Assembly (NCBI RefSeq): GCF_001278035.1
Contig: NZ_CP009452.1
Span: 1 to 64,000, forward strand
Length of the DNA stretch: 64,000 nucleotides
DNA from: Sphingopyxis sp. 113P3
GTDB taxonomy: Bacteria; Pseudomonadota; Alphaproteobacteria; Sphingomonadales; Sphingomonadaceae
Direction: 5' to 3'
The notes under the pieces are model-generated. The model saw nothing but the letters and a program-made list of their open reading frames with translations, was not told the origin of the DNA and did no database searches. The translations under genes and the position numbers were made by a program. Position 1 is the stretch's first letter; each line of letters opens with the position of its first letter. Shown one piece after another: positions 15,985 to 43,391 of the stretch.

Positions 15985-16638
15985 TCAGTCGCGGTCGGGC
16001 GCCCCGAACGGGAAATAGGCGCGGTAGGGCCGGGCATCGTCGACGCAGCGCTTCACGGACGGATATGCGAGAAGCCTCGCCCGATAGCCGCGCAGATTTT
16101 CGTAATGCTCGGGAATCCTGTACAGCCAGTCGGCATAGAAAAGCGACGGCGCGGCCGCGCAATCGGCGAGAGTAAAGCCATAGGGTGTTGCCCATCCGCC
16201 GCCGGCAAGTTCCCTGTCGAGCCAGCCATAGACATTCTCCAGCGCCGTTTCGCACTCGGTTCGGATCGCGGGAACATGCGCTTCGGGCCCGCGTAGCGCG
16301 TCGGCAACCACCGCCTGCATCTTGTTCATCACATGAAGGTCGAAGATGCGGTCGAGGAAGCGCACTCTCAGTGCAGCCTCGAACCCCTCCGGGATCATCC
16401 GCGGTTCGGGAACGAGGTGTTCGAGATATTCGATGATGATCGACGATTCGAACACCGGGACCCCGTCATGCACGATCAGCGGGAATTGGCCCACCGGCCA
16501 ATGTGCCTTAAGCTCGGGCATATGCGCCGGAAACTCAGGGTCAACCGATCGGTAATCGAAGGGGATGTCCTTCTCGTAGAGCGCGATCAGGGCCTTCCAG
16601 GTGTAGGAGGAAAAGGGGTGGCCATAGAAGATCAGCAT
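15985..16638 (-). CDS. Glutathione S-transferase family protein
   Basis: 217 aa. The N-domain begins MLIFYGHPFSSYTWKALIAL with a serine in the catalytic turn; GQFPLIVHDGVPVFESSIII carries the cis-Pro and the Glu-Ser that hold glutathione. The helical C-domain contains FTLADCAAAPSLFYADW. The start at 16638 overlaps the preceding gene's stop by 7 bp, so it is translationally coupled. Probably the last gene of the TetR-headed run. The substrate is unknown. Confidence 0.88.
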   Translation of the reverse strand: MLIFYGHPFSSYTWKALIALYEKDIPFDYRSVDPEFPAHMPELKAHWPVGQFPLIVHDGVPVFESSIIIEYLEHLVPEPRMIPEGFEAALRVRFLDRIFDLHVMNKMQAVVADALRGPEAHVPAIRTECETALENVYGWLDRELAGGGWATPYGFTLADCAAAPSLFYADWLYRIPEHYENLRGYRARLLAYPSVKRCVDDARPYRAYFPFGAPDRD

Positions 16639-17096
16639 CGAGGAGTTTCCTTGTTGCGTGCAAGCCAGGCGATCGGCCAGCCGACGAGCAGGACGTGGGG
16701 AAGGAGGAGCAAGGCGGCGTTTGCGAGATCTTCTGGCGGAAATGGCGATCCGAAGCGGAGCGGCAGCACGATAGCGTTCATCACCAGGTAGAGAAGCAGC
16801 CCATAGAGCGTGCCCCCAATCCACCAGGACAAGTCGGCGAGCGCGGGCCAGCGGTGGACAGCGGAGAACCACGCCGCGACCATCGCCGCCATAATCGCGA
16901 AATGGACACCGAGTCCGGCAACCGCGCCGACCGGGCCCCAGCCGCTCGCGCTCTGAAACGGACCGCTCGCGACGCCGCGCAGCATCCCCCCGACACTGCC
17001 CCCGGCCATCAGCGTCAGCCCCGCCGCATAGGCGATGTCGAGCGTTCCCGCGATCAGCCAAGCGCGAACGGCCGCGCCTCGCTGCACTCGGGTCAC
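16632..17096 (-). CDS. Four-helix integral membrane protein, unknown function
   Basis: 154 aa with about four hydrophobic segments (near 12-32, 57-77, 90-110 and 128-146), the shape of small inner-membrane proteins such as YagU-like or DUF-type proteins. No catalytic motif is recognised. It overlaps the upstream VOC gene by 4 bp and the downstream GST by 7 bp, so it belongs to the same transcript. Confidence 0.7.
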   Translation of the reverse strand: MTRVQRGAAVRAWLIAGTLDIAYAAGLTLMAGGSVGGMLRGVASGPFQSASGWGPVGAVAGLGVHFAIMAAMVAAWFSAVHRWPALADLSWWIGGTLYGLLLYLVMNAIVLPLRFGSPFPPEDLANAALLLLPHVLLVGWPIAWLARNKETPRC

Positions 17097-17578
17097 GCGG
17101 CGGTCACCGCGGCTTCGATGGTGGCGATGTCGATCTTCTTCATCTTCAACATCGCCTCGAACGCGCGCTTTGCCACGGCCTTGTCACTGCCCATCGTCGC
17201 ATCGGTCAGCGCGCGCGGAGTGATCTGCCACGATACGCCCCATTTGTCCTTGCACCATCCGCAGGCGCTTTCCTCACCGCCGTTCCCGACAATTGCATCC
17301 CACAGCCGGTCGGTTTCCTCCTGCGTGTCGGTGTGGACCTGGAAGGAGAAGGATTCATTATGCTTGAAGATGGGTGGACCGTTGATCCCGATGCACGGCG
17401 TGCCGAGCAGCGTGAAGTCGACCGCCAGCACCTCGCCCTCCTTGTTGCCGGGTGTGTCCACCGGCGCGAGGTGCACCGCGTCCAGGCTGCTGTTGCTGAA
17501 GGTCGCGGCATAAAAGGCGGCCGCTTCTTCGGCATCGCCTTCGTACCACAGGCACAGCGTCATGGGGTTGCGGCTCAT
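17093..17578 (-). CDS. VOC-family protein, PhnB-like (glyoxalase fold)
   Basis: 161 aa. PhnB/3-demethylubiquinone-methyltransferase-like VOC protein: LCLWYEGDAEEAAAFYAATF at the N-terminus, AVDFTLLGTPCIGINGPP in the middle, and KDKWGVSWQITPRAL near residue 115, the family's WGV-SWQ motif. VOC proteins bind a metal and small reactive molecules, but the substrate is unknown. ATG is preceded by AAAGGAG. Overlaps its neighbours by 4 bp on both sides. Confidence 0.88.
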   Translation of the reverse strand: MSRNPMTLCLWYEGDAEEAAAFYAATFSNSSLDAVHLAPVDTPGNKEGEVLAVDFTLLGTPCIGINGPPIFKHNESFSFQVHTDTQEETDRLWDAIVGNGGEESACGWCKDKWGVSWQITPRALTDATMGSDKAVAKRAFEAMLKMKKIDIATIEAAVTAA

Positions 17579-18000
17579 TGTGCTTCTCCTTTCAAAGGCG
17601 TGCCGATCGACCAGAGGTGTCCGAATGGGTCTCGGACCTGCGCATAGCGATCGCCCCAGAACATATCCTCGGGGGCCATGACCGACGTGGCGCCGGCTTC
17701 GATCGCGCGACCATACCAGCGATCGGTGTCATCGACCTGCAGGTGCAGCACCGTGCCCGCAGGCTCCGGCGCGGGGCCGCCCGAATATTCGGGAAAATCG
17801 TCATGCATCATCAGCGACGCGCCGTTGATATGGACATGCGCGTGCATCAGTCGCTCGCCATCGTCGGCGGGCACGCGGGTTACCTCGGTGGCGCCGAACG
17901 CCCTGGCGTAAAAGTCGATCGCGTCCGCGGCCCGCCTGTCGCGGATGGTGAGATGCGGTGTCAGGCCGCCGGTCGGCGCCTGGTTTGCGGGGGTTGTCAT
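17575..18000 (-). CDS. VOC-family protein, PhnB-like (glyoxalase fold)
   Basis: 141 aa, a second PhnB-like VOC protein: HLTIRDRRAADAIDFYARAF, then MHAHVHINGASLMMHDDFPE and the C-terminal DPFGHLWSIGTP typical of the group. The leader AGGAGAGAGACACG before the ATG is nearly the same as those of several other genes in this run. A short hairpin (18023-18042) lies in the 54-bp gap upstream. Confidence 0.88.
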   Translation of the reverse strand: MTTPANQAPTGGLTPHLTIRDRRAADAIDFYARAFGATEVTRVPADDGERLMHAHVHINGASLMMHDDFPEYSGGPAPEPAGTVLHLQVDDTDRWYGRAIEAGATSVMAPEDMFWGDRYAQVRDPFGHLWSIGTPLKGEAQ

Positions 18001-18022
18001 CGTGTCTCTCTCCTCTTGCGAT

Positions 18023-18042
18023 CCCTCCTCTTCAAGGGAGGG
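18023..18042. repeat. Intergenic G/C-arm hairpin (short family)
   Basis: CCCTCC pairs with GGGAGG around TCTTCAA, continuing into GG. It lies between two cotranscribed genes without a T tract, so RNA processing or stabilisation is more likely than termination. Similar hairpins occur at 20472-20489 and 51369-51390. Confidence 0.5.
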
Positions 18043-18054
18043 GGTAAATGGGGT

Positions 18055-18852
18055 TCAGTGCCGTGGTCCGACCAGACCGAAAGCGGCGCCCTGCGGGTCG
18101 AGCCCGTTCATCGCGAACTCGCCGCCAGGAATTTCCGCAGCTTCGCTGGTAATTGTGCCGCCATTCGCCGTGATGGCTGCAGCGGCGCGGTCGATGTCGT
18201 CGACGCCGATATAATAGGACCACGTCGCCGCGGGCGCACCGGGCACAAGTCCCATGACGGCGCCAATCGCGACCTCGCCTACCTGGACGAAACGATATGG
18301 GCCCATCTCGCCCATGTCGAATGCACCCTCCTGCCCCCAGCCGAAATGCTTTCGATAGAATGCAATTGCGGCGTCGGGGTCGCTGGTCATGAGCTCGTTC
18401 CAGCGCACGTGCTGCGCCTCGGTCGGCGAAAAGGCGTCGCTGTCCACATCCTCCATTCCGGCGGGCGGGATCGGGTTCATGACATAAAAGGGCGCGCCCT
18501 GCGGGTCGGACAGCATCGCTATGCGCCCCACAGGCAGATCGGTCGGGGGCATGTGCACCGCGCCGCCGTCAGCGGTGATCGCCGCAATCGTGGCGTCGAC
18601 ATCGGGGGTATAGAGATAGCCCATCCACGCGGGCCGCGCGCCGCCTGCGAGCATGTCGGCGTTCAAACCCAGCACTCCGCCGGCATTGCCGCCGTCGCTG
18701 CGTCCGATCATGCGATAGTCCACGCCACTCGCTGCGGTGCCCGCGTTCGGCGCGATCGTCCAGCCGACGACCGCGCCGTAAAAGCGCGCTGCGGCGTCGG
18801 GATCGCTTGTCATCAACTCGTACCAGAGAAAGCTGCCCTTGGGATTGGTCAT
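18055..18852 (-). CDS. Two-domain VOC-family protein
   Basis: 265 aa built from two glyoxalase-fold repeats. Repeat one has FLWYELMTSDPDAAARFYGA (about 8-27) and LSDPQGAPFYVMNP; repeat two has RWNELMTSDPDAAIAFYRKH and GLDPQGAAFGLVG at the end. The arrangement matches the two-domain VOC proteins often found in stress loci. Start at 18852 is preceded by GCGAGAGACG, a variant of the repeated leader of this run; a longer frame to 18939 is not needed. Confidence 0.88.
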   Translation of the reverse strand: MTNPKGSFLWYELMTSDPDAAARFYGAVVGWTIAPNAGTAASGVDYRMIGRSDGGNAGGVLGLNADMLAGGARPAWMGYLYTPDVDATIAAITADGGAVHMPPTDLPVGRIAMLSDPQGAPFYVMNPIPPAGMEDVDSDAFSPTEAQHVRWNELMTSDPDAAIAFYRKHFGWGQEGAFDMGEMGPYRFVQVGEVAIGAVMGLVPGAPAATWSYYIGVDDIDRAAAAITANGGTITSEAAEIPGGEFAMNGLDPQGAAFGLVGPRH

Positions 18853-18875
18853 CGTCTCTCGCCTTGGAATCAGGT

Positions 18876-19598
18876 TCAATAGGTCAGGCTGGGGAAGAAA
18901 TTGCCCCGCCCCTCGGGCGTCATGTCGAGCAGACCCCACAGCGGATCCACAAGGTCACCCGCGCGGTGGTGCTGGCCGGGGTCCTCGGGAGCGTAGGCCA
19001 TTTCACTCGCCCAATGATGGCGAATGATGTCGCCGTCCTTGCAGAAGATGTTGAATATCGTCTCGTCCCAATCCTCGCCCTCGCCCATGCCGCGCTCGGC
19101 GCGTTTCGCGGGACTCAGCCGCCGCGTGTCGCCAAAATAGGCGGCCGAATAACGGCCCTCGCCATCGGACAGGAAGTGAAGGTGCCGCCAGCGCCGCTCC
19201 CTGGCCCAGGCTTCGAGCCGCGCGATCGGCGACTTGGCGACGATATAGAGCGGCACGCGCTGTCCCACATGCCGCGCGCTGCCGTCGATCGCGTCGAGCA
19301 GATGAGTGCAGCCAGGGCACGGCATGTCCCGCTCGGGCCCGAACATGAAGCTGTAGAGGATGATCGTTGGCTCCCCGCCGAACAGCTGGGAGAGCCGGAT
19401 CGCTTCGGGGCGCTGGTGTGCGCCGATCTGCTCGAAGGCATAATCCTCTGGCAGCGCACCACCGGGCGGGAGCGCCCGCCGCTGCGTCGCGACGGCTTCG
19501 ATCTGCCGCCGCAGCGCAATCTCGGCATCGAGCAGCGCGGCGCGCGCTTCTCGATATTCGCTGCTCTCATTGGGGAAGGCCAGATGCTCCATCGTCAT
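18876..19598 (-). CDS. DUF899-family thioredoxin-like protein
   Basis: 240 aa from MTMEHLAFPNESSEYREAR at 19598. The central part shows a thioredoxin-like pattern around SFMFGPERDMPCPGCTHLL, with a CPGC motif, and LHFLSDGEGRYSAAYFG. The C-terminus contains DETIFNIFCKDGDIIRHHW. DUF899 proteins have no established biochemical role, but their fold and cysteines suggest thiol chemistry. It lies 23 bp upstream of the two-domain VOC gene. Confidence 0.85.
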   Translation of the reverse strand: MTMEHLAFPNESSEYREARAALLDAEIALRRQIEAVATQRRALPPGGALPEDYAFEQIGAHQRPEAIRLSQLFGGEPTIILYSFMFGPERDMPCPGCTHLLDAIDGSARHVGQRVPLYIVAKSPIARLEAWARERRWRHLHFLSDGEGRYSAAYFGDTRRLSPAKRAERGMGEGEDWDETIFNIFCKDGDIIRHHWASEMAYAPEDPGQHHRAGDLVDPLWGLLDMTPEGRGNFFPSLTY

Positions 19599-19725
19599 GC
19601 TCCTAACATCCTCGCCGCGGCGAAGCAGCGGGGAGAGCGAACGGCGGGCGGGGGAGCGCCTTGCGCTTGCTCCTGCCACCAGGGCCGCGGTTGACCTCGC
19701 TTTGCAACGGCGAGGACCGAGACCG

Positions 19726-20445
19726 TCACGCGTCCAGGATCGGCGCGAAACCCCCATAGATCATGCGCTTGCCGTCGAAGGTCTGATCGTTCGGGTCGTG
19801 CTGCATCCGTTCGTCCGCCATCACCTTTTCCCAGCCGGCGACGCGCGCTTCCCTGCTCGGCCATTCGATCCAGCTGAATACGGGCGTCTCGCCGTTCTCG
19901 AGGTGTACCGCGCGCTTGAAATCGGTGACCTTGCCGTCATGGACATCGTCACCCCAGCATTCGAGCACGCGCGTTGCGCCATGATCGAGAAAGACGATCG
20001 CCGCCTTGTCTGCCATCGCACGATAGGCGTCCTTGTTGGCGTCGGGTACAGCGACGAGAAAGCCGTCGGTATAGCCCATCGATCCCCCCAAACCTTCATC
20101 GACGATCGAGTCGAAACCCGAAACAATCATCCGTTGGCCGTCGAAGGGCATGGATTGCCCCATGCCCTGCATCCGGGGATCGCTCATCATCTTGGCATTC
20201 GCCGCGTCGCGCGTCGCGCGGTCGGGATATTCGAACCAGCTGAAGACGATCTCCTCGCCCTCCTTCGCCTGCACCGCGCTGCGAAAATCGTTGAGCTTGC
20301 CTGCGGGAATATCATCGCCCCATGTTTCGACATGGCGGCGCACGCCGAACTCCTTGAACAGCGCCACCGCGCCGGCGGCGTGCTGGCGATAGTCCTCCTT
20401 GCTGGCACTGGGCACGGCAAGGACAAATCCTTCCACATAGGTCAT
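19726..20445 (-). CDS. Tandem DUF1428 protein (two fused copies)
   Basis: 239 aa, two DUF1428 domains in one chain. Copy one (about 1-117) has YVEGFVLAVPSASKEDYRQH and VFSWFEYPDRATRDAA; copy two (about 119-239) has YTDGFLVAVPDANKDAYRAM and VFSWIEWPSREARVAG, both ending FDGQRM or FDGKRM. DUF1428 belongs to the dimeric alpha+beta barrel superfamily, and function is unknown. A fusion gives both halves of the usual dimer in one polypeptide. The ATG at 20445 has the leader AAAGGAGAGAGACG. Confidence 0.87.
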   Translation of the reverse strand: MTYVEGFVLAVPSASKEDYRQHAAGAVALFKEFGVRRHVETWGDDIPAGKLNDFRSAVQAKEGEEIVFSWFEYPDRATRDAANAKMMSDPRMQGMGQSMPFDGQRMIVSGFDSIVDEGLGGSMGYTDGFLVAVPDANKDAYRAMADKAAIVFLDHGATRVLECWGDDVHDGKVTDFKRAVHLENGETPVFSWIEWPSREARVAGWEKVMADERMQHDPNDQTFDGKRMIYGGFAPILDA

Positions 20446-20471
20446 CGTCTCTCTCCTTTGTTCGTTACGCT

Positions 20472-20489
20472 CCTCCTTCTGCAAGGAGG
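20472..20489. repeat. Intergenic hairpin (short family)
   Basis: CCTCCTT and AAGGAGG form a perfect 7-bp stem with a CTGC loop in the 50-bp gap between the GST and DUF1428 genes. There is no T tract. The minus-strand RNA carries AAGGAGG in the stem, which could also interact with ribosomes. Confidence 0.5.
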
Positions 20490-20495
20490 CCTCTT

Positions 20496-21170
20496 CTATT
20501 CCCCCACTGGTCCCGCTTCCTCTCGGAACGCTGCGAGCTGCGCCTTCAGCGCACGGTCGAAGGCCGGACGGTCGAGGCAGCGCGCCAGATAGGCCTCGAG
20601 CGCCCGATGTTCGGCGATCGCGCCGCTTGCGATTCCCTCGCGCAGCACCGTCGCCATCGCAATGTCGGCGACGCTGAAATCTCCGGCCAGATAGGGCCGA
20701 TCGCCCAGCGCCTCGGCCAGCTTGCCGAAGCGCTGCTGGATGAACTCCATCAACGCCGGCCGGCGGAGCTTCGCCCATTCCTCTTCCGCGGCGAACAGGT
20801 CGACGTTCGACAGTTCGAACATCAAGGGCTCGACGCTGTTATAGGCCGCGAAGAGCCAGCTGATGACGGTTGCACGGCCCTGCGGGTCGCGCGGAAGCAA
20901 CGCTTCGTCCTTTTCGGCAAGGTGGAGGAGGATCGCGCCGCTTTCGAACAGGCGCACTTCGCCGTCGCGCAGGACGGGAACCTGGCCCCAAGGCTGGTCG
21001 CGATAATGTTCGGGTGGGCGGTTGACGGCGCTGATCAGATGCTCGGCATAGTCGATCCCCATTTCCTCGCACGCCCAGCGAGGACGCAGGTCGCGAACGA
21101 AGCCGCGCGCGAAGTCGGGAACCCAGTCAAAAGCGGTGATCTGGATGGGGGCGTTCGGGTTTACGGGCAT
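20496..21170 (-). CDS. Glutathione S-transferase family protein
   Basis: 224 aa. An N-domain with RDLRPRWACEEMGIDY, then QVPVLRDGEVRLFESGAIL, containing the cis-Pro and Glu-Ser of the glutathione site. The C-domain shows AGDFSVADIAMATVLR with the conserved N-cap Asp. The catalytic residue is not clear because the usual Ser/Tyr turn reads FDWVPD. It lies between the hydrolase and DUF1428 genes in the same direction. Confidence 0.87.
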   Translation of the reverse strand: MPVNPNAPIQITAFDWVPDFARGFVRDLRPRWACEEMGIDYAEHLISAVNRPPEHYRDQPWGQVPVLRDGEVRLFESGAILLHLAEKDEALLPRDPQGRATVISWLFAAYNSVEPLMFELSNVDLFAAEEEWAKLRRPALMEFIQQRFGKLAEALGDRPYLAGDFSVADIAMATVLREGIASGAIAEHRALEAYLARCLDRPAFDRALKAQLAAFREEAGPVGE

Positions 21171-21212
21171 GGATCCTCTCCCTGGACCGTGGGCTTGGCG
21201 GGCTCTCGTTGC

Positions 21213-22181
21213 TCAGAAAAAAACGGCGGGCAGCGGGGGCGTGGTGTCGTCGAGAAATGGGGTGACCATCGCGGCGATTGTCGCCGCCTCGGCCATCAGG
21301 CCGATGTGCGAGGTGCCGGGCAGAATCGCGAGCCGTGCCTTGGGCGCCTCGGTCATGAAGCCTTCGACCACGGGCTTCTTGTCGCCGCCTCCGCGCAGCT
21401 TGAACAGCTTGATGGCATGGTCGAAGGTCACGCCGTCGGCATCGCCCAGGATGATCATCGTCTTGCCGGGAATCGCGCGGATCTGCTCGTCGCTGAACCC
21501 GAAGGGTGTCGAATCGAGCTCCTTGATTGCCGCGACAAGCTTCGGAAAGGCCTTGGGGGCCGGGGACATGTCGCGATAGGCCTTCTCCATCGGAGATCCC
21601 GCGAGCTCCTCGGGCGTCATTTTGGCAATGGCGGAGAGGACTTCGGGATGCCAGCCGTCGAGGCTCGCCGTACCCGACAGGATCACTTGCTTGCCGATGC
21701 GGTCGGGATGGCGGACCGCGAGCGCGACCGCGGTGCTGCCGCCCATCGAATATCCGAGCACGTCCGCGCGCGCGATCCCCAGTTCGGCAAGCAGTGCCGC
21801 GGCGTCGTCGGCCATCGTCTCATAGCTTATCGGGCCGCCCACGTCGCCGGTGCGGCCGTGGCCGCGCGCGTCGAGGGTGATGACCGGGCGCGTCTCGGCG
21901 AAGCGATCAACCAGCGGCTTCATCGCCTCGCCCGACATGAAAGCCCCGTGAAGGATGAGGAGCGGCGCTGTACCGGAGGCGAGATCCCCATGTACCGCAT
22001 AATGGAGCCTGACCCCGTTGACCTCGGCAGTGCCCGGCTTCACCGGGACAGCCGTGGCCGCCAGCGCGCTCCCCTGGGCGGGCTGCGCATGGGCGGGCGC
22101 GGCGGTGGTTGCGAGCAGCAGCGCGGGAACAAGCGCTACGGTGCGGCACATCGCCGCAAGGGGGGAGGCACGAAAAGGCAT
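21213..22181 (-). CDS. Exported alpha/beta hydrolase
   Basis: 322 aa with a signal peptide (VALVPALLLATTAAPAHAQ). Hydrolase hallmarks are LLILHGAFMSGEAM (oxyanion region), the nucleophile elbow GYSMGGSTA near 146 and the late His in LPGTSHIGLM. The Asp is probably in ILGDADGVTF. Hydrolysed substrate unknown; a periplasmic esterase or lactonase role fits. Leader AAAAGGAGAGACTC resembles the other leaders of this run. Confidence 0.87.
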   Translation of the reverse strand: MPFRASPLAAMCRTVALVPALLLATTAAPAHAQPAQGSALAATAVPVKPGTAEVNGVRLHYAVHGDLASGTAPLLILHGAFMSGEAMKPLVDRFAETRPVITLDARGHGRTGDVGGPISYETMADDAAALLAELGIARADVLGYSMGGSTAVALAVRHPDRIGKQVILSGTASLDGWHPEVLSAIAKMTPEELAGSPMEKAYRDMSPAPKAFPKLVAAIKELDSTPFGFSDEQIRAIPGKTMIILGDADGVTFDHAIKLFKLRGGGDKKPVVEGFMTEAPKARLAILPGTSHIGLMAEAATIAAMVTPFLDDTTPPLPAVFF

Positions 22182-22233
22182 GAGTCTCTCCTTTTATCTT
22201 TGACGAAGTCGCGCGCGACGGCCCTTGGCCATG

Positions 22234-22650
22234 TCAGTCTGCGGCCGTCTGCACCGGGATCAGCCGGCGCAGCGCAGGGCTCCGCAGCCACAACCCGCCC
22301 CACAATAAGATTCCGAGGTAGGCGCCGAACAGCGTGTGGCTCGCCAGCGGGCTGTCGATCCGCAAGTGGGTGGCGATCGCGCCGCCCAGATAGCCGGTGA
22401 TCAGGATCGCGCCGATCATCGCCGTGCGCGGCCAGATATGAAGAAGCGTTGGGATCAGAAGCAGCAACCCCAGCGTCCGCATTGTCGCGACGTCAAGCCG
22501 CCATCCGAGGCCCGGGGGGCTGTAATCGATGGCGACTTGCGGCGCGATCAGCTTGGTTCCGCAATCCAGAAGAAGAAAGGCGACAACGAGCCCGCTGAGG
22601 ATGCGTCCGGCAATCAGCGCTCGGCGGGAGGGGAGGCTGTTCAAGGTCAT
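22234..22650 (-). CDS. DoxX-like small membrane protein
   Basis: 138 aa with four hydrophobic segments (about 14-32, 52-70, 76-95 and 103-121). The first contains GRILSGLVVAFLLLDCGTKL, typical of DoxX-like proteins encoded with VOC, hydrolase and regulator genes. Function is unknown; relatives have been linked to thiol stress. Start 22650 is preceded by AGGAGCGAGACG. Confidence 0.8.
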   Translation of the reverse strand: MTLNSLPSRRALIAGRILSGLVVAFLLLDCGTKLIAPQVAIDYSPPGLGWRLDVATMRTLGLLLLIPTLLHIWPRTAMIGAILITGYLGGAIATHLRIDSPLASHTLFGAYLGILLWGGLWLRSPALRRLIPVQTAAD

Positions 22651-22672
22651 CGTCTCGCTCCTGCTTTCGCGA

Positions 22673-23113
22673 TCAGGCGGAGACTTCAGCCGGTGCACCA
22701 TCGCCGTTTGCGACGGCGGGATCCATCCAGAAGGGCCCCCAGACGTGGCCATCGGGGTCCAAAAGGTCGCGGCCATACATGAAGCCGTGATCCTGCACCG
22801 GATTGATGTCGGCGGTGCCACCGTTCGCCGCCGCGGCTTCGATCATCGCGTCGACCGCCTCGCGGCTGTCCATCGCCAGCGCCAGCGACACCTCACTTGA
22901 CGTCGTGGGCGGGATCGGTCGATCGGTGAAGCTCTTCCACTTGTCATGGCTGAGGATCATGAGGAAGATGCTCTCCGACCAGACCATCGCGGCAGCGGTG
23001 TCGTCGGAGAAGCGCGGCTCGATGGTAAAGCCGAGGGCCGTATAGAAGGCCTTCGACCGTTCAAGCTCGGCGACGGGCAGGTTGACGAAAATCATCTTGG
23101 GGGCAGCGGTCAT
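22673..23113 (-). CDS. VOC-family protein (glyoxalase fold)
   Basis: 146 aa, single-domain VOC protein: MIFVNLPVAELERSKAFYTA, then ESIFLMILSHDKWKSF and the C-terminal DPDGHVWGPFWMDP, which supplies the usual metal-site Glu/His positions only in part. Start at 23113 follows AGAGGA at 7 nt; a longer frame would reach back to 23146, into the tetR stop. First structural gene after the regulator. Confidence 0.88.
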   Translation of the reverse strand: MTAAPKMIFVNLPVAELERSKAFYTALGFTIEPRFSDDTAAAMVWSESIFLMILSHDKWKSFTDRPIPPTTSSEVSLALAMDSREAVDAMIEAAAANGGTADINPVQDHGFMYGRDLLDPDGHVWGPFWMDPAVANGDGAPAEVSA

Positions 23114-23142
23114 CGAAAAATCCTCTCTCATTCCATTTTTTC

Positions 23143-23862
23143 TCACCCTCTGCCGAACAGCATGAGGATGTAACGCTTCAGGTGGGTGACGCTATCGCGG
23201 GCAATGGCGGGGTCGTTCGTGGTCTTCGCCATGATGAAGGCGCCCTGGAGCACCGCCTGGACGTGGCGCGCGAGGCTCATCGCGCCGACTCCGTGGGAAA
23301 TGCCGTGGCGCGCGATCGCTGCCTCGATGTCGGGAGCCAGTGCTTCGCAATAGGCGGCAATGCTCGCTTCGCACGCAGCGCGGATCGCATCATTGGTTGC
23401 ATAGGCTTCCTGCACCATCGTCCCGACAAAGCAGGTGAAATCCTCGACCGGCCCGTCGAGCATGGCGAGGCGGAAATCGATATGGCCAAGCAACCGGTCG
23501 AGCGGATCGTCGAGCTTTGTGTGCGGGGGCAATTCGAACATCGGCCGCGCGCGCTCGGTCCAGCCTTCGGCCGCAGCGATCGCCAGTGCGTCTTTCGACG
23601 CGAAATGGTGGAAGAAAGCACCTTTGGTGACGCCGGCCACCGCGCAGATCTCGTCGACCGTCGTGGCGGCATAGCCCTTGCGCCGCACCATCTGGTGCGC
23701 TGCGGCGATCAGCTTGTCGCGTGCGGTCCCTCGCGCGGCCCGTCCGCGAGAGGGGGCGCCGCCGCCCGCCGAGGGGACTATGCGGGCGGCGGCAGCCGCA
23801 CCGCGTACGGCGCGGCGCGGGGGCTGGCGGGATGGAATCGGAGGGCTCTCGTTTGTCGTCAT
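23143..23862 (-). CDS. TetR-family transcriptional regulator
   Basis: 239 aa. A Pro/Arg/Ala-rich tail of about 47 residues precedes the TetR DNA-binding domain (TARDKLIAAAHQMVRRKGYA, then TTVDEICAVAGVTKGAFFHH, then FASKDAL), followed by a helical ligand-binding domain. No start codon was found between the ATG at 23862 and the helix-turn-helix, so that ATG is well supported. A promoter and palindromic operator sit immediately upstream, which points to autoregulation. Likely repressor of the downstream VOC/GST/DUF run. Confidence 0.92.
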   Translation of the reverse strand: MTTNESPPIPSRQPPRRAVRGAAAAARIVPSAGGGAPSRGRAARGTARDKLIAAAHQMVRRKGYAATTVDEICAVAGVTKGAFFHHFASKDALAIAAAEGWTERARPMFELPPHTKLDDPLDRLLGHIDFRLAMLDGPVEDFTCFVGTMVQEAYATNDAIRAACEASIAAYCEALAPDIEAAIARHGISHGVGAMSLARHVQAVLQGAFIMAKTTNDPAIARDSVTHLKRYILMLFGRG

Positions 23863-23869
23863 GCGAGTC

Positions 23870-23898
23870 AACATACCGACTAGTTGGTATGGTGTCAA
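23870..23898 (-). promoter_or_regulatory. tetR promoter with 18-bp operator palindrome in the spacer
   Basis: On the minus strand TTGACA (23898-23893), 17 bases, TATGTT (23875-23870), then seven bases to the tetR ATG. The spacer and -10 contain ATACC-N-ACTAGT-N-GGTAT (23873-23890), an 18-bp palindrome broken only at one symmetric pair. A bound dimer would block RNA polymerase. The transcript start is expected at or next to the ATG, so the mRNA should be almost leaderless. Confidence 0.8.
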
Positions 23899-41209: not shown

Positions 41210-42583
41210 TTAGAAACTGAGTTCGCCGTAGATGTTCGACAGGTCCTGCGCCCAGGCTCCCTCGTAGCGATCGAGCAGGTCGTGCGCGGGGGATTTGCCG
41301 CTCTTGGCGATGCGTCGGAGCGGTTCGAGAAAGCCCACTTCATTTTCGCCCATCGAGTTGACTTCGCCGCGTGCGGCGAGGCCCGCCGCGGCGATGTCGA
41401 GAACCTCGTGCGCAAGGTCGCCGATTGTACCGCCGCCGGGGGCGGGGGCGCAAAGGCCGTCCCTCGGCACCGCATCGCGCAGCGCCTGCTGGTCCTCGAT
41501 GCTCCAGCCCTTCACGAGGTCCCAGGCGGCGTCGAGCGCGCCCTGGTCGTAGAGCAGTCCGACCCACAGCGCCGGAAGCGCACAGATGCGGTTCCACGGC
41601 CCGCCGTCGGCGCCGCGCATTTCGAGGAAGCTCTTGAGCCGCACCTCGGGAAAGGCGGTCGAAAGATGATCGTTCCAGTCGCTGAGCAGCGGCAGTTCGC
41701 CGGGGAGCGCAGGCAGTTCGCCCTTCAGGAAATCGCGGAAGCTCTGCCCCGCCGCATCGATATACCGGCCGTCGCGGAAGACGAAATACATCGGAACGTC
41801 GAGCATATAGTCGACATAGCGGTCATAGCCGAAGCCGTCCTCGAACACGAAGGGCAGCATGCCGGTGCGTGCGGGGTCGGTGTCGGTCCAGATGTGGCTG
41901 CGGTACGACATATAGCCGTTTGGCCGGCCGTCAGTGAACGGCGAGGCGGCAAACAGCGCGGTCGCAAGGGGCTGGAGCGCGAGCGAGACGCGGAATTTTT
42001 GCGCCATGTCGGCCTCGCTCGCATAATCGAGATTGGTCTGGATCGTGCAGGTGCGCAGCATCATGTCGAGCCCCATCGTGCCAACACGCGGCATGTGCTC
42101 GAGCATGATCTTGTAGCGGCCCTTGGGCATGCGCGGCAGGTCGTCCCGACCCTTGTCCGGCCACATGCCAAGACCCAGAAAGCCGAGACCGAGTTCGGCG
42201 CCGACTTCCTTGACCTGCTTGAGATGACGGCCGGTCTCGGCGCACGTCTGGTGAAGATTTTCGAGCGGGGCGCCCGACAACTCCAATTGCCCGGCAGGTT
42301 CGAGGCTGATCGCGCCGTCGCTGCCCGAAAGCGCGATCACATTGCCGCCCTCGCAAACGGGTTCCCAGCCGTAGCGCGTGAGCGCCATCAAAAGGTCGCG
42401 TATGCCCCCGGGCTCGTCGTAAGACGGGGCGCTGTGGTCGCTGGTGCGATAGACGAATTTCTCGTGCTCGGTGCCGATGCGCCACATCTCGCGAGGCTTT
42501 TCGCCCTTCGCCATGGGGGCCGCGAGCTGGTCGCGGCTTTCGATGATGGGATCGTTTCGATCTGAAACCTGCCGCGTGCTCAT
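41210..42583 (-). CDS. gshA: Glutamate-cysteine ligase (alphaproteobacterial/plant type)
   Basis: ATP-dependent first step of glutathione synthesis; 457 aa. WRIGTEHEKFVY (about 38-49) and LEPAGQLELSGAPLENLH are substrate and metal sites of the plant/alphaproteobacterial class. GLGMWPDKG and MLRTCTIQTNLDYASEADM follow. ATG 42583 is chosen; a longer frame runs to 42739 without family character. The window's GST and glutaredoxin proteins depend on its product. It lies 49 bp after rsmE. Confidence 0.96.
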   Translation of the reverse strand: MSTRQVSDRNDPIIESRDQLAAPMAKGEKPREMWRIGTEHEKFVYRTSDHSAPSYDEPGGIRDLLMALTRYGWEPVCEGGNVIALSGSDGAISLEPAGQLELSGAPLENLHQTCAETGRHLKQVKEVGAELGLGFLGLGMWPDKGRDDLPRMPKGRYKIMLEHMPRVGTMGLDMMLRTCTIQTNLDYASEADMAQKFRVSLALQPLATALFAASPFTDGRPNGYMSYRSHIWTDTDPARTGMLPFVFEDGFGYDRYVDYMLDVPMYFVFRDGRYIDAAGQSFRDFLKGELPALPGELPLLSDWNDHLSTAFPEVRLKSFLEMRGADGGPWNRICALPALWVGLLYDQGALDAAWDLVKGWSIEDQQALRDAVPRDGLCAPAPGGGTIGDLAHEVLDIAAAGLAARGEVNSMGENEVGFLEPLRRIAKSGKSPAHDLLDRYEGAWAQDLSNIYGELSF

Positions 42584-42632
42584 GCGCGAGCATTTAGGGT
42601 GCGTCGAGCGATCTGACCAGTGGGTGATTGCA

Positions 42633-43391
42633 TCAGCCAGACCTACCCTCCGCATCCCAGTCGCCATGGGTCGCCATCCAGATGCCGGTTGCGGCGATGG
42701 CAGCGGTTTCTGCGCGCAGAATGCGGGGACCGAGCGCAATACGGCGCACCGCGCGAAGCGCTAGCAGCGCTTCGCGCTCCTGGTCGGTAAAGCCGCCTTC
42801 GGGGCCGGTGAGGATCGCGGCGGGGGCGGGGGCATTGGCGCCGGCCAGTGGGATCCCGCCCGCTTCGTCGGCGAAGAGTAGCGCACGCTCTTCAGGCCAG
42901 TCCATCAGCAGCTGCGGCAGCTTCACCGGGTCGGCGAGCTCAGGGAGAGCAGTGCGTCCGCATTGCTCGCAAGCCTCGATGATCTGCGCCTCGATTCGCT
43001 CGCGCCTGACCCGCTCGACGATGGTGCGCTCGGTGATGACCGGCTGCAGGCGCGCGATGCCGAGTTCGGTTGCCTTTTCGATGATCCAGTCGAGGCGTGC
43101 CTTTTTGACAGGCGCGAAACAGAGCCAGAGATCGGGCACGCGTTCAATCGGCCGCGTCTGACACTCGATCCGAACGGTCAGCGTGCGCTTTTGCGTCGCG
43201 GCGATACTGCCAAGCCATTCGCCGCTGCGATTGTCGAAAAGGAGCAAGGGGTCCCCCGTCTTCGCCCGCATGACATGCAGCAGATAATGTGCCGCGGACC
43301 CATCGATAATCGGCGCGCGTTCGAGACCGAGCGGCTCGTCGACGAACAGGCGGGGCGTGCTGGCCGGCGGCCAGGCAGGTGTGGCGGGCAT
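42633..43391 (-). CDS. rsmE: 16S rRNA (uracil1498-N3)-methyltransferase
   Basis: 252 aa, SPOUT-class methyltransferase. N-terminal PUA-like part (PRLFVDEPLGLE and AAHYLLHVMRAKTGD); C-terminal knot with LIIEKATELGIA-type sequence (DWIIEKATELGIARLQPVIT), ERIEAQIIEACEQCGR, LTGPEGGFTDQE and LGPRILRAETAAIAA, all diagnostic. Modifies U1498 of 16S rRNA. Precedes gshA on the same strand. Confidence 0.97.
   Translation of the reverse strand: MPATPAWPPASTPRLFVDEPLGLERAPIIDGSAAHYLLHVMRAKTGDPLLLFDNRSGEWLGSIAATQKRTLTVRIECQTRPIERVPDLWLCFAPVKKARLDWIIEKATELGIARLQPVITERTIVERVRRERIEAQIIEACEQCGRTALPELADPVKLPQLLMDWPEERALLFADEAGGIPLAGANAPAPAAILTGPEGGFTDQEREALLALRAVRRIALGPRILRAETAAIAATGIWMATHGDWDAEGRSG

Follow-up and report, generated by a model that had tools for sequence, protein, structure and literature searches.

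A TetR-headed twelve-gene run in Sphingopyxis sp. 113P3 as a candidate thiol-switch detoxification operon

What holds together a run of twelve genes that opens with a TetR-type repressor gene and continues with members of the VOC, GST, DoxX, DUF1428 and DUF899 families, and what might it be for? The question arises from Sphingopyxis sp. 113P3, where these genes occupy positions 15985-23862 of the window, i.e., the analysed stretch of 64,000 nucleotides from contig NZ_CP009452.1. A first-pass annotation had read the run as one stress-inducible unit under one TetR, directed against electrophiles or reactive carbonyls. Sphingomonads are known as pollutant degraders, and DUF899 and DUF1428 are almost unstudied as judged from the matches listed for the open-licence literature; with one repressor and one exact operator, the function of both families would be reducible to what opens the promoter. 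Our analysis indicates that the genes very probably form one unit under one repressor. It favours, with a probability of roughly 0.6, a dedicated, negatively autoregulated operon of the NemR/AltR type, in which a thiol switch would govern detoxification of electrophiles or reactive chlorine.

A single operator in the tetR promoter

The gene of the NemR/AcuR-like repressor (tetR, 23143..23862, minus strand; TetR_N and TetR_C_13 in Pfam) is preceded on its own strand by the -35 hexamer TTGACA (23893..23898), which 66 of 72 genus loci share at this spot, and by the -10-like hexamer TATGTT (23870..23875), which ends 7 nt ahead of the tetR ATG. A near-perfect palindrome, TACCAACTAGTCGGTA (TACCRAC-YR-GTYGGTA, 23874..23889), lies in the spacer between them, overlaps the -10-like hexamer by two bases and is predicted to be the operator. 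It is the sole exact match in the organism's own 4.66-Mb genome. No sign of a wider regulon emerged there: no other exact site exists, and the two sites with two mismatches are fewer than the 11 returned by the reversed-pattern control. A narrower operator pattern gave 1 match in the same genome versus 2 in the control.

The genus was sampled with 80 genomes, in each of which up to 35 repressor candidates were scored at a threshold of E <= 1e-40. The repressor was found in 73 of them, once each. Exactly one site for the degenerate operator TACCRACYRGTYGGTA is present in 71 of the 80 genomes and none in nine, and the reversed-pattern control yielded 0 sites in all 80. All seven genomes without a repressor match are among the nine without a site. 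The remaining two carry the repressor but no exact site: in G073 the locus (L063) starts within the site, and in G075 (L104) 14 of 16 positions match. Among the seven genomes, the operon is cut by a contig end in G041 and G050 (loci L107 and L106), and G065 and G066 are only 81% and 87% complete, so that absence of both repressor and site is secure only for G012, G074 and G079. The site lies within 170 nt of the tetR match in 71 of 73 genus loci, and no second exact site occurs in any of 105 loci from within and outside the genus.

When 72 genus promoters were aligned on the site, the arrangement TTGACAaCA-site-TG proved to be kept at 60-100% per base, with almost no conservation upstream of TTGACA and moderate conservation downstream into the first codons. 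The first ATG follows 11 nt after the site in 62 of these 72. None of the 71 genus loci with an exact site shows a Shine-Dalgarno-like motif ahead of tetR; in the window, such a motif precedes 9 of the 11 downstream genes. Because the ATG stands 7 nt behind the -10-like hexamer and tetR is without such a motif, a leaderless tetR transcript is predicted, and this transcript is probably autoregulated as well.

Fixed order and changing content

All twelve open reading frames are minus-strand genes and follow the order of the first-pass annotation, and Pfam agrees with its family names. Downstream of tetR follow the VOC gene vocA (22673..23113; Glyoxalase), a DoxX_2 membrane protein gene (doxX, 22234..22650), an alpha/beta hydrolase gene (abh, 21213..22181; Abhydrolase_6, with an N-terminus that by eye resembles a signal peptide), GST 1 (gst1, 20496..21170; GST_N), a DUF1428 gene with two DUF1428 stretches fused in one open reading frame, the halves being 47% identical (19726..20445), DUF899 (18876..19598, with a CPGC motif), a two-domain VOC gene (voc2, 18055..18852; two-domain Glyoxalase), a YjdN/PhnB-like VOC gene (vocB, 17575..18000; Glyoxalase), a PhnB-type VOC gene (phnB, 17093..17578; 3-dmu-9_3-mt, PF06983), a membrane protein gene (mem, 16632..17096) and GST 2 (gst2, 15985..16638; Pfam). 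The mem product has four hydrophobic segments and no significant Pfam family; a weak match to DUF1440 (E 0.05) was not used.

In transcription order the gaps measure 29, 22, 52, 42, 50, 127, 23, 54, -4, -4 and -7 bp. The overlaps of 4-7 bp that had been described thus hold at three junctions, VOC/PhnB, PhnB/membrane and membrane/GST. An overlap of tetR and vocA is obtained only with a GTG start at 23146, which we set aside in favour of the ATG at 23113; this ATG has a purine-rich, ribosome-site-like stretch ahead of it and leaves a 29-bp gap to tetR. Since the downstream neighbours, from 15934 to about 11990, are also on the minus strand, the shared strand is weak evidence for an operon. The layout exceeds what chance would give because gene order is conserved across the genus and because dN/dS lies between 0.06 and 0.34 for each of the twelve genes against three close relatives, one of which is without the hydrolase gene. 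As a side observation, the dS of GST 1 to locus L034 is 0.07, below that of its operon neighbours (0.15-0.46), which may mark gene exchange. Intergenic hairpins were considered as terminators and discarded, given 6 terminator-like sites versus 5.6 expected. Short hairpins of the CCTCCC..GGAGGG type occur in two operon gaps (18023-18043 and 20472-20489); no T-run accompanies them on the strand of the operon, and they could represent either dispersed repeats or sites of RNA processing.

Conservation was assessed by tblastn with the window genes against 74 genus loci; 72 of these surround tetR, and the other two (L106 and L107) surround DUF899, tetR being cut off there. Counts of order and presence refer to 73 loci, i.e., the window plus the 72 tetR loci. 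The genes are not scattered in close relatives: among 596 neighbouring gene pairs there is a single order change and no strand change, though content varies. All twelve genes are present in only 11 of the 73 loci, and 36 presence patterns occur. A second tally, with nine short loci listed by hand left out and best matches taken at any identity, covers 64 loci. It separates a near-constant set (tetR 64, vocA 63, gst1 61, duf1428 63, voc2 60, phnB 64, gst2 61) from accessory genes (doxX 39, abh 33, duf899 29, vocB 39, mem 42). At 60% identity or more the counts drop to 23 for vocA, 14 for mem and 56 for gst2; the tallies for vocA and mem therefore include diverged copies. DUF899, which had been treated as a hallmark of the operon, matched in 30 of the 73 tetR loci and is accessory, like the DoxX, hydrolase and membrane protein genes and one of the VOC genes.

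On a yidC tree, which covers 54 of the 73 loci, the accessory genes change often (doxX 10, abh 12, duf899 14, vocB 13, mem 9) and the others rarely (vocA 2, gst1 2, duf1428 1, voc2 3, phnB 0, gst2 3). Note that genes present in nearly all tips necessarily show few changes. The values for duf899 and vocB fall inside the range obtained by shuffling labels (minima of 13 and 12) and fit the yidC tree poorly. In the gaps of relatives, open reading frames called by a heuristic add AHSA1, GFA, RibD_C, GST, VOC, carbonic anhydrase, DUF6958, DUF4287 and SnoaL; the opposite-strand clusters 2, 5 and 7 among these reading frames were taken as spurious. In 58 of the 73 loci, the fetched stretch includes the neighbours dn1, pgpgw and yidC, all on the same strand. 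The operon mostly sits at one chromosomal place, with L103 and L104 as exceptions, since none of the neighbours dn1, pgpgw, yidC, bactofilin and M23 appears in their fetched stretch. In L103, core genes follow the same operator at this other place; in L104 the site is the one with 14 of 16 positions. In two loci, L039 and L083, the bactofilin and M23 genes downstream of dn1 point the other way, which would fit a flip of operon and dn1 together relative to them. Sequence comparison within the genus thus presents an operon in which genes appear to be gained and lost at fixed positions while the core, the order and the switch stay. Across the genus it clearly exemplifies how an operon can vary in content with order and control preserved.

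Beyond the genus, 397 genomes of the family were drawn and the best seven candidates in each were scored for the repressor at E <= 1e-35. It is present in at least 38, of which 29 lie outside the genus, and 30 loci were fetched from these 29 genomes. The exact operator persists in 26 of the 30, likewise within 170 nt of the tetR match. The downstream genes belong to the same families but are fewer: of the 30 loci, phnB is present in 22, duf1428 in 17, voc2 in 17, gst2 in 9, and vocA, gst1 and vocB in 8 each, and two loci have none of the eleven downstream genes. DUF1428 is single-domain in all 19 reads from outside the genus and long, i.e., fused, in 70 of 71 genus reads. In L111 and L116, both from other genera, it appears as two separate neighbouring single-domain matches. 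This suggests that DUF1428 was duplicated and later fused, with L111 and L116 as a possible step before fusion. In L117 (G119), the repressor gene that follows an exact operator breaks off 51 residues from its ATG, with DUF1428 and PhnB matches behind it; this repressor was left out of every residue count.

Taken together, the single operator embedded in the promoter, the order conserved in the genus and the co-occurrence of site and repressor uphold the earlier proposal that one TetR controls one unit, as far as sequence can tell.

The repressor as sensor and the competing explanations

Named best protein matches of the repressor are mostly from Sphingopyxis, and several are annotated as 'repressor of nem operon'. 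A Foldseek search with its AlphaFold model (mean pLDDT 75) placed the chains of NemR 4yze at ranks 2-5, behind a TetR protein of Chloroflexus and ahead of a Rhodobacter sphaeroides TetR (3bru) in 6th place. The repressor aligns with NemR 4yze along its length, and the Foldseek alignment puts the identity at about 20%. Of its cysteines (positions 73, 144, 164 and 172), C144 aligns with the only cysteine of the 4yze chain in that stretch; 4YZE is the NemR form that keeps Cys106 alone (PMC8748444). K213 falls on NemR Lys175, and Y154 falls on residue 116, counted along the printed chain with an offset of two. All 73 genus repressors have C144 and K213, as do all 28 aligned repressors from elsewhere; both are present in L115 by motif. 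The response of NemR to reactive chlorine requires Cys106, a residue that NemR homologues conserve (PMC5297802, excerpt). It is on the nearness to NemR in sequence and fold, with the Cys106 position kept, that the proposed role against electrophiles is built. Judged from sequence, the repressor probably senses reactive chemicals by a thiol switch, and C144 is its likely location.

In the mechanism that we propose, a repressor dimer on the palindrome would block RNA polymerase until an electrophile or oxidant (reactive chlorine, a quinone, an alpha-oxoaldehyde or similar) modifies Cys144 and the repressor releases the DNA. The leaderless mRNA would then yield little repressor, and most downstream genes, which have ribosome sites, would be well translated. 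Their products would clear the reactive compound and restore thiols. In this scheme, GSTs and VOC proteins may serve glutathione conjugation or carbonyl/thiol chemistry, the DUF899 protein with its modelled thioredoxin fold may reduce disulfides or peroxides, and DUF1428 may contribute one further step of unspecified chemistry. The nearest solved structure of the two-domain VOC protein is Rv0577 (3oxh, E 8e-31), which has been suggested to act in aldehyde detoxification (PMC9006002, excerpt). The first half of the DUF1428 protein matches E. coli YbaA (2okq), named hypothetical there, and DUF1428 is presumably distantly ABM-like in fold. For DUF899, no PDB relative was found by sequence at E <= 1. 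The structures that its model (pLDDT 85) matches are peroxiredoxins and thioredoxins of the TlpA type, at query-normalised TM-scores of about 0.4; all 30 aligned sequences keep C94 and C97, and CxxC is present in 32 of 33 match-derived reads from 32 loci, L107 contributing two pieces. As modelled and as read from sequence, the gene products fit glutathione- and thiol-linked chemistry. A gshA gene (GCS2, 41210-42739), to which the first-pass annotation had pointed, does lie in the window.

Several results weigh against this explanation. NemR Cys21 and Cys116 are reported as essential for electrophiles (PMC5297802). The counterpart of Cys116 is Y154, with no cysteine at 154 in any of the 73 genus repressors, and Cys21 falls by alignment range near V59, which is valine in all 73; one repressor from outside the genus has a cysteine at 153. 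As neither NemR residue is kept, the sensor may be tuned towards oxidants or bind its ligand non-covalently. The Cys/Lys pair is not diagnostic either, because by eye the distant paralogue L140 also has Cys and Lys at the corresponding places. In two of three PDB alignments the cysteine is joined by Gln or Arg at the lysine position. L140 is the nearest paralogue in the genome (L140:1461-2084, C1:1505460-1506083; 28% identity) and has a GST gene close by on the opposite strand. For a NemR-based sensor the cysteine suffices, and the lysine is dispensable (PMC8748444, excerpt); on this ground and on that of the paralogue, a sulfenamide switch was dropped as a firm claim. The best NCBIfam matches are ScbR and AcuR, both far below their cut-offs (51.6 bits versus 247 for the AcuR model NF051457), with no NemR model listed. 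In the family, 359 of the 397 genomes are without the repressor at E <= 1e-35 among the best seven candidates each, and outside the genus order is looser: changes affect 12 of 96 pairs, and one match is on the minus strand, partly owing to weak distant matches. Moreover, VOC, GST, AHSA1 and DoxX are broad families from which substrates are not readable. The proposed electrophile defence is thus plausible on the closeness to NemR and the Cys106 position, and it is tempered by the absence of Cys21 and Cys116.

Three other explanations deserve attention; they overlap with each other, and the confidences given to them do not sum to one. The first holds that C144 senses HOCl, chloramines or disulfide stress only and that the gene products act in thiol repair and not in carbonyl removal. 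This is a possibility to be taken seriously, though we would not bet on it. The positions of Cys106 and Lys175 are the ones kept and Cys116 is not (nor, by alignment range, Cys21); the DUF899 model has a peroxiredoxin/thioredoxin-like fold in which C94 and C97 are invariant, and the NemR-related AltR senses thiosulfinates via Cys100 (excerpt of PMC13178969). Yet DUF899 is missing from more than half of the tetR loci, and VOC proteins dominate the core. We consider it unlikely that the repressor is instead a ligand-type switch, as in AcuR or ScbR, which binds a metabolite non-covalently and serves a catabolic or signal route for one compound, e.g., a lactone or enone that the hydrolase and the GSTs would open. 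The layout of the AcuR operon is alike, being leaderless and autoregulated with the operator over the promoter (PMC3017554, excerpt), the repressor is weakly similar to the ScbR and AcuR models, the R. sphaeroides TetR 3bru ranks 6th in Foldseek, and the hydrolase weakly resembles PcaD-type lactonases (NCBIfam). A linear pathway, however, would hardly tolerate the losses of the hydrolase, vocB, DoxX, DUF899 and membrane protein genes in many relatives, and a core of GST- and VOC-type genes with overlapping chemistry is not pathway-like.

Very improbable, finally, is the absence of any single transcription unit, i.e., a neighbourhood in which detoxification genes, each regulated independently, are slowly shuffled and share a strand by chance. 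The 127-bp and 50-54-bp gaps are roomy enough for promoters, the flanking downstream genes are on the same strand, order loosens outside the genus, and a second promoter-like site sits within the two-domain VOC gene. The two promoter-like sites of the window analysis are at chance level overall (1.0 expected), yet genus-wide conservation marks the one at tetR. Against independent genes also stand the three overlaps, the unique operator, an order kept in 595 of 596 genus pairs and the recurrence of core genes behind this operator in other genera and at a different location in L103 (in L104, behind the site with 14 of 16 positions).

Should the switch prove NemR-like, sphingomonads would possess a dedicated response to reactive chemicals that we did not find described among the matches listed for the open-licence literature. 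More tentatively, and with less confidence than in the mechanism itself, the locus may be seen as an expandable defence operon, in which a thiol-switch repressor with a single target commands a fixed-order rack of small detoxification enzymes, added or deleted by lineage and mostly of uncharacterised chemistry, that would form a new glutathione-linked pathway of sphingomonads. If this were true, it would give a shared function to orphan families, namely the fused tandem DUF1428, the peroxiredoxin-like DUF899, DUF4287 and DUF6958.

Relation to known systems

The first-pass annotation had put the combination of genes forward as a candidate undescribed operon. The gene set as such was indeed not found among the matches listed for the open-licence literature, but there is precedent for its kind in the alt clusters of Pantoea and Pseudomonas, where, according to the excerpt of PMC13178969, the NemR-related AltR controls itself and about ten stress genes, has an inverted repeat over its own promoter and depends on one essential cysteine. 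As is proposed for the locus described here, these are long multi-gene clusters behind a NemR-like thiol-switch repressor. The operators differ: the box described there is CAATCTAC-N6-GTAGATTG, as opposed to TACCRAC-N2-GTYGGTA here, and the alt IR2 repeat TTACCAAC-N6-GTTGGTAA has a half-site in common with the operator at 23874-23889 but a different spacing.

With nemRA-gloA of E. coli the locus shares the layout, a TetR repressor first in its own operon and a VOC-type gene (gloA) downstream, along with the full-length alignment to NemR and the positions of Cys106 and Lys175. Unlike that operon, it encodes no member of the NemA family of old yellow enzymes/flavoenzymes among its twelve genes (Pfam), NemR Cys116 (and Cys21, by alignment range) is not kept, and the gene set is much longer and variable.

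In Rhodobacter sphaeroides, the transcript of acuR has been mapped as leaderless and its operon is autoregulated (PMC3017554). The acuR-acuI-dddL operon, as described in that excerpt, resembles the pattern predicted here from sequence in being autoregulated and leaderless, with an operator that overlaps the promoter and ribosome sites downstream. Its operator is TAATAGAC-N6-GTCTATTA, in contrast, and its inducer acrylate; neither the acuI nor the dddL family is seen among the twelve genes (Pfam). The arqI-gloA2 pair of Pseudomonas aeruginosa, an aldehyde-induced operon of a glyoxalase and a small ABM-fold partner (PMC12274486, excerpt), is by description alike in setting a glyoxalase beside such a partner, and unlike in consisting of two genes and being glyoxal-specific. 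The resemblance turns on DUF1428 having a distantly similar fold. By analogy, the Sphingopyxis locus appears to work like the NemR and AltR systems while differing from them in its operator and its gene set.

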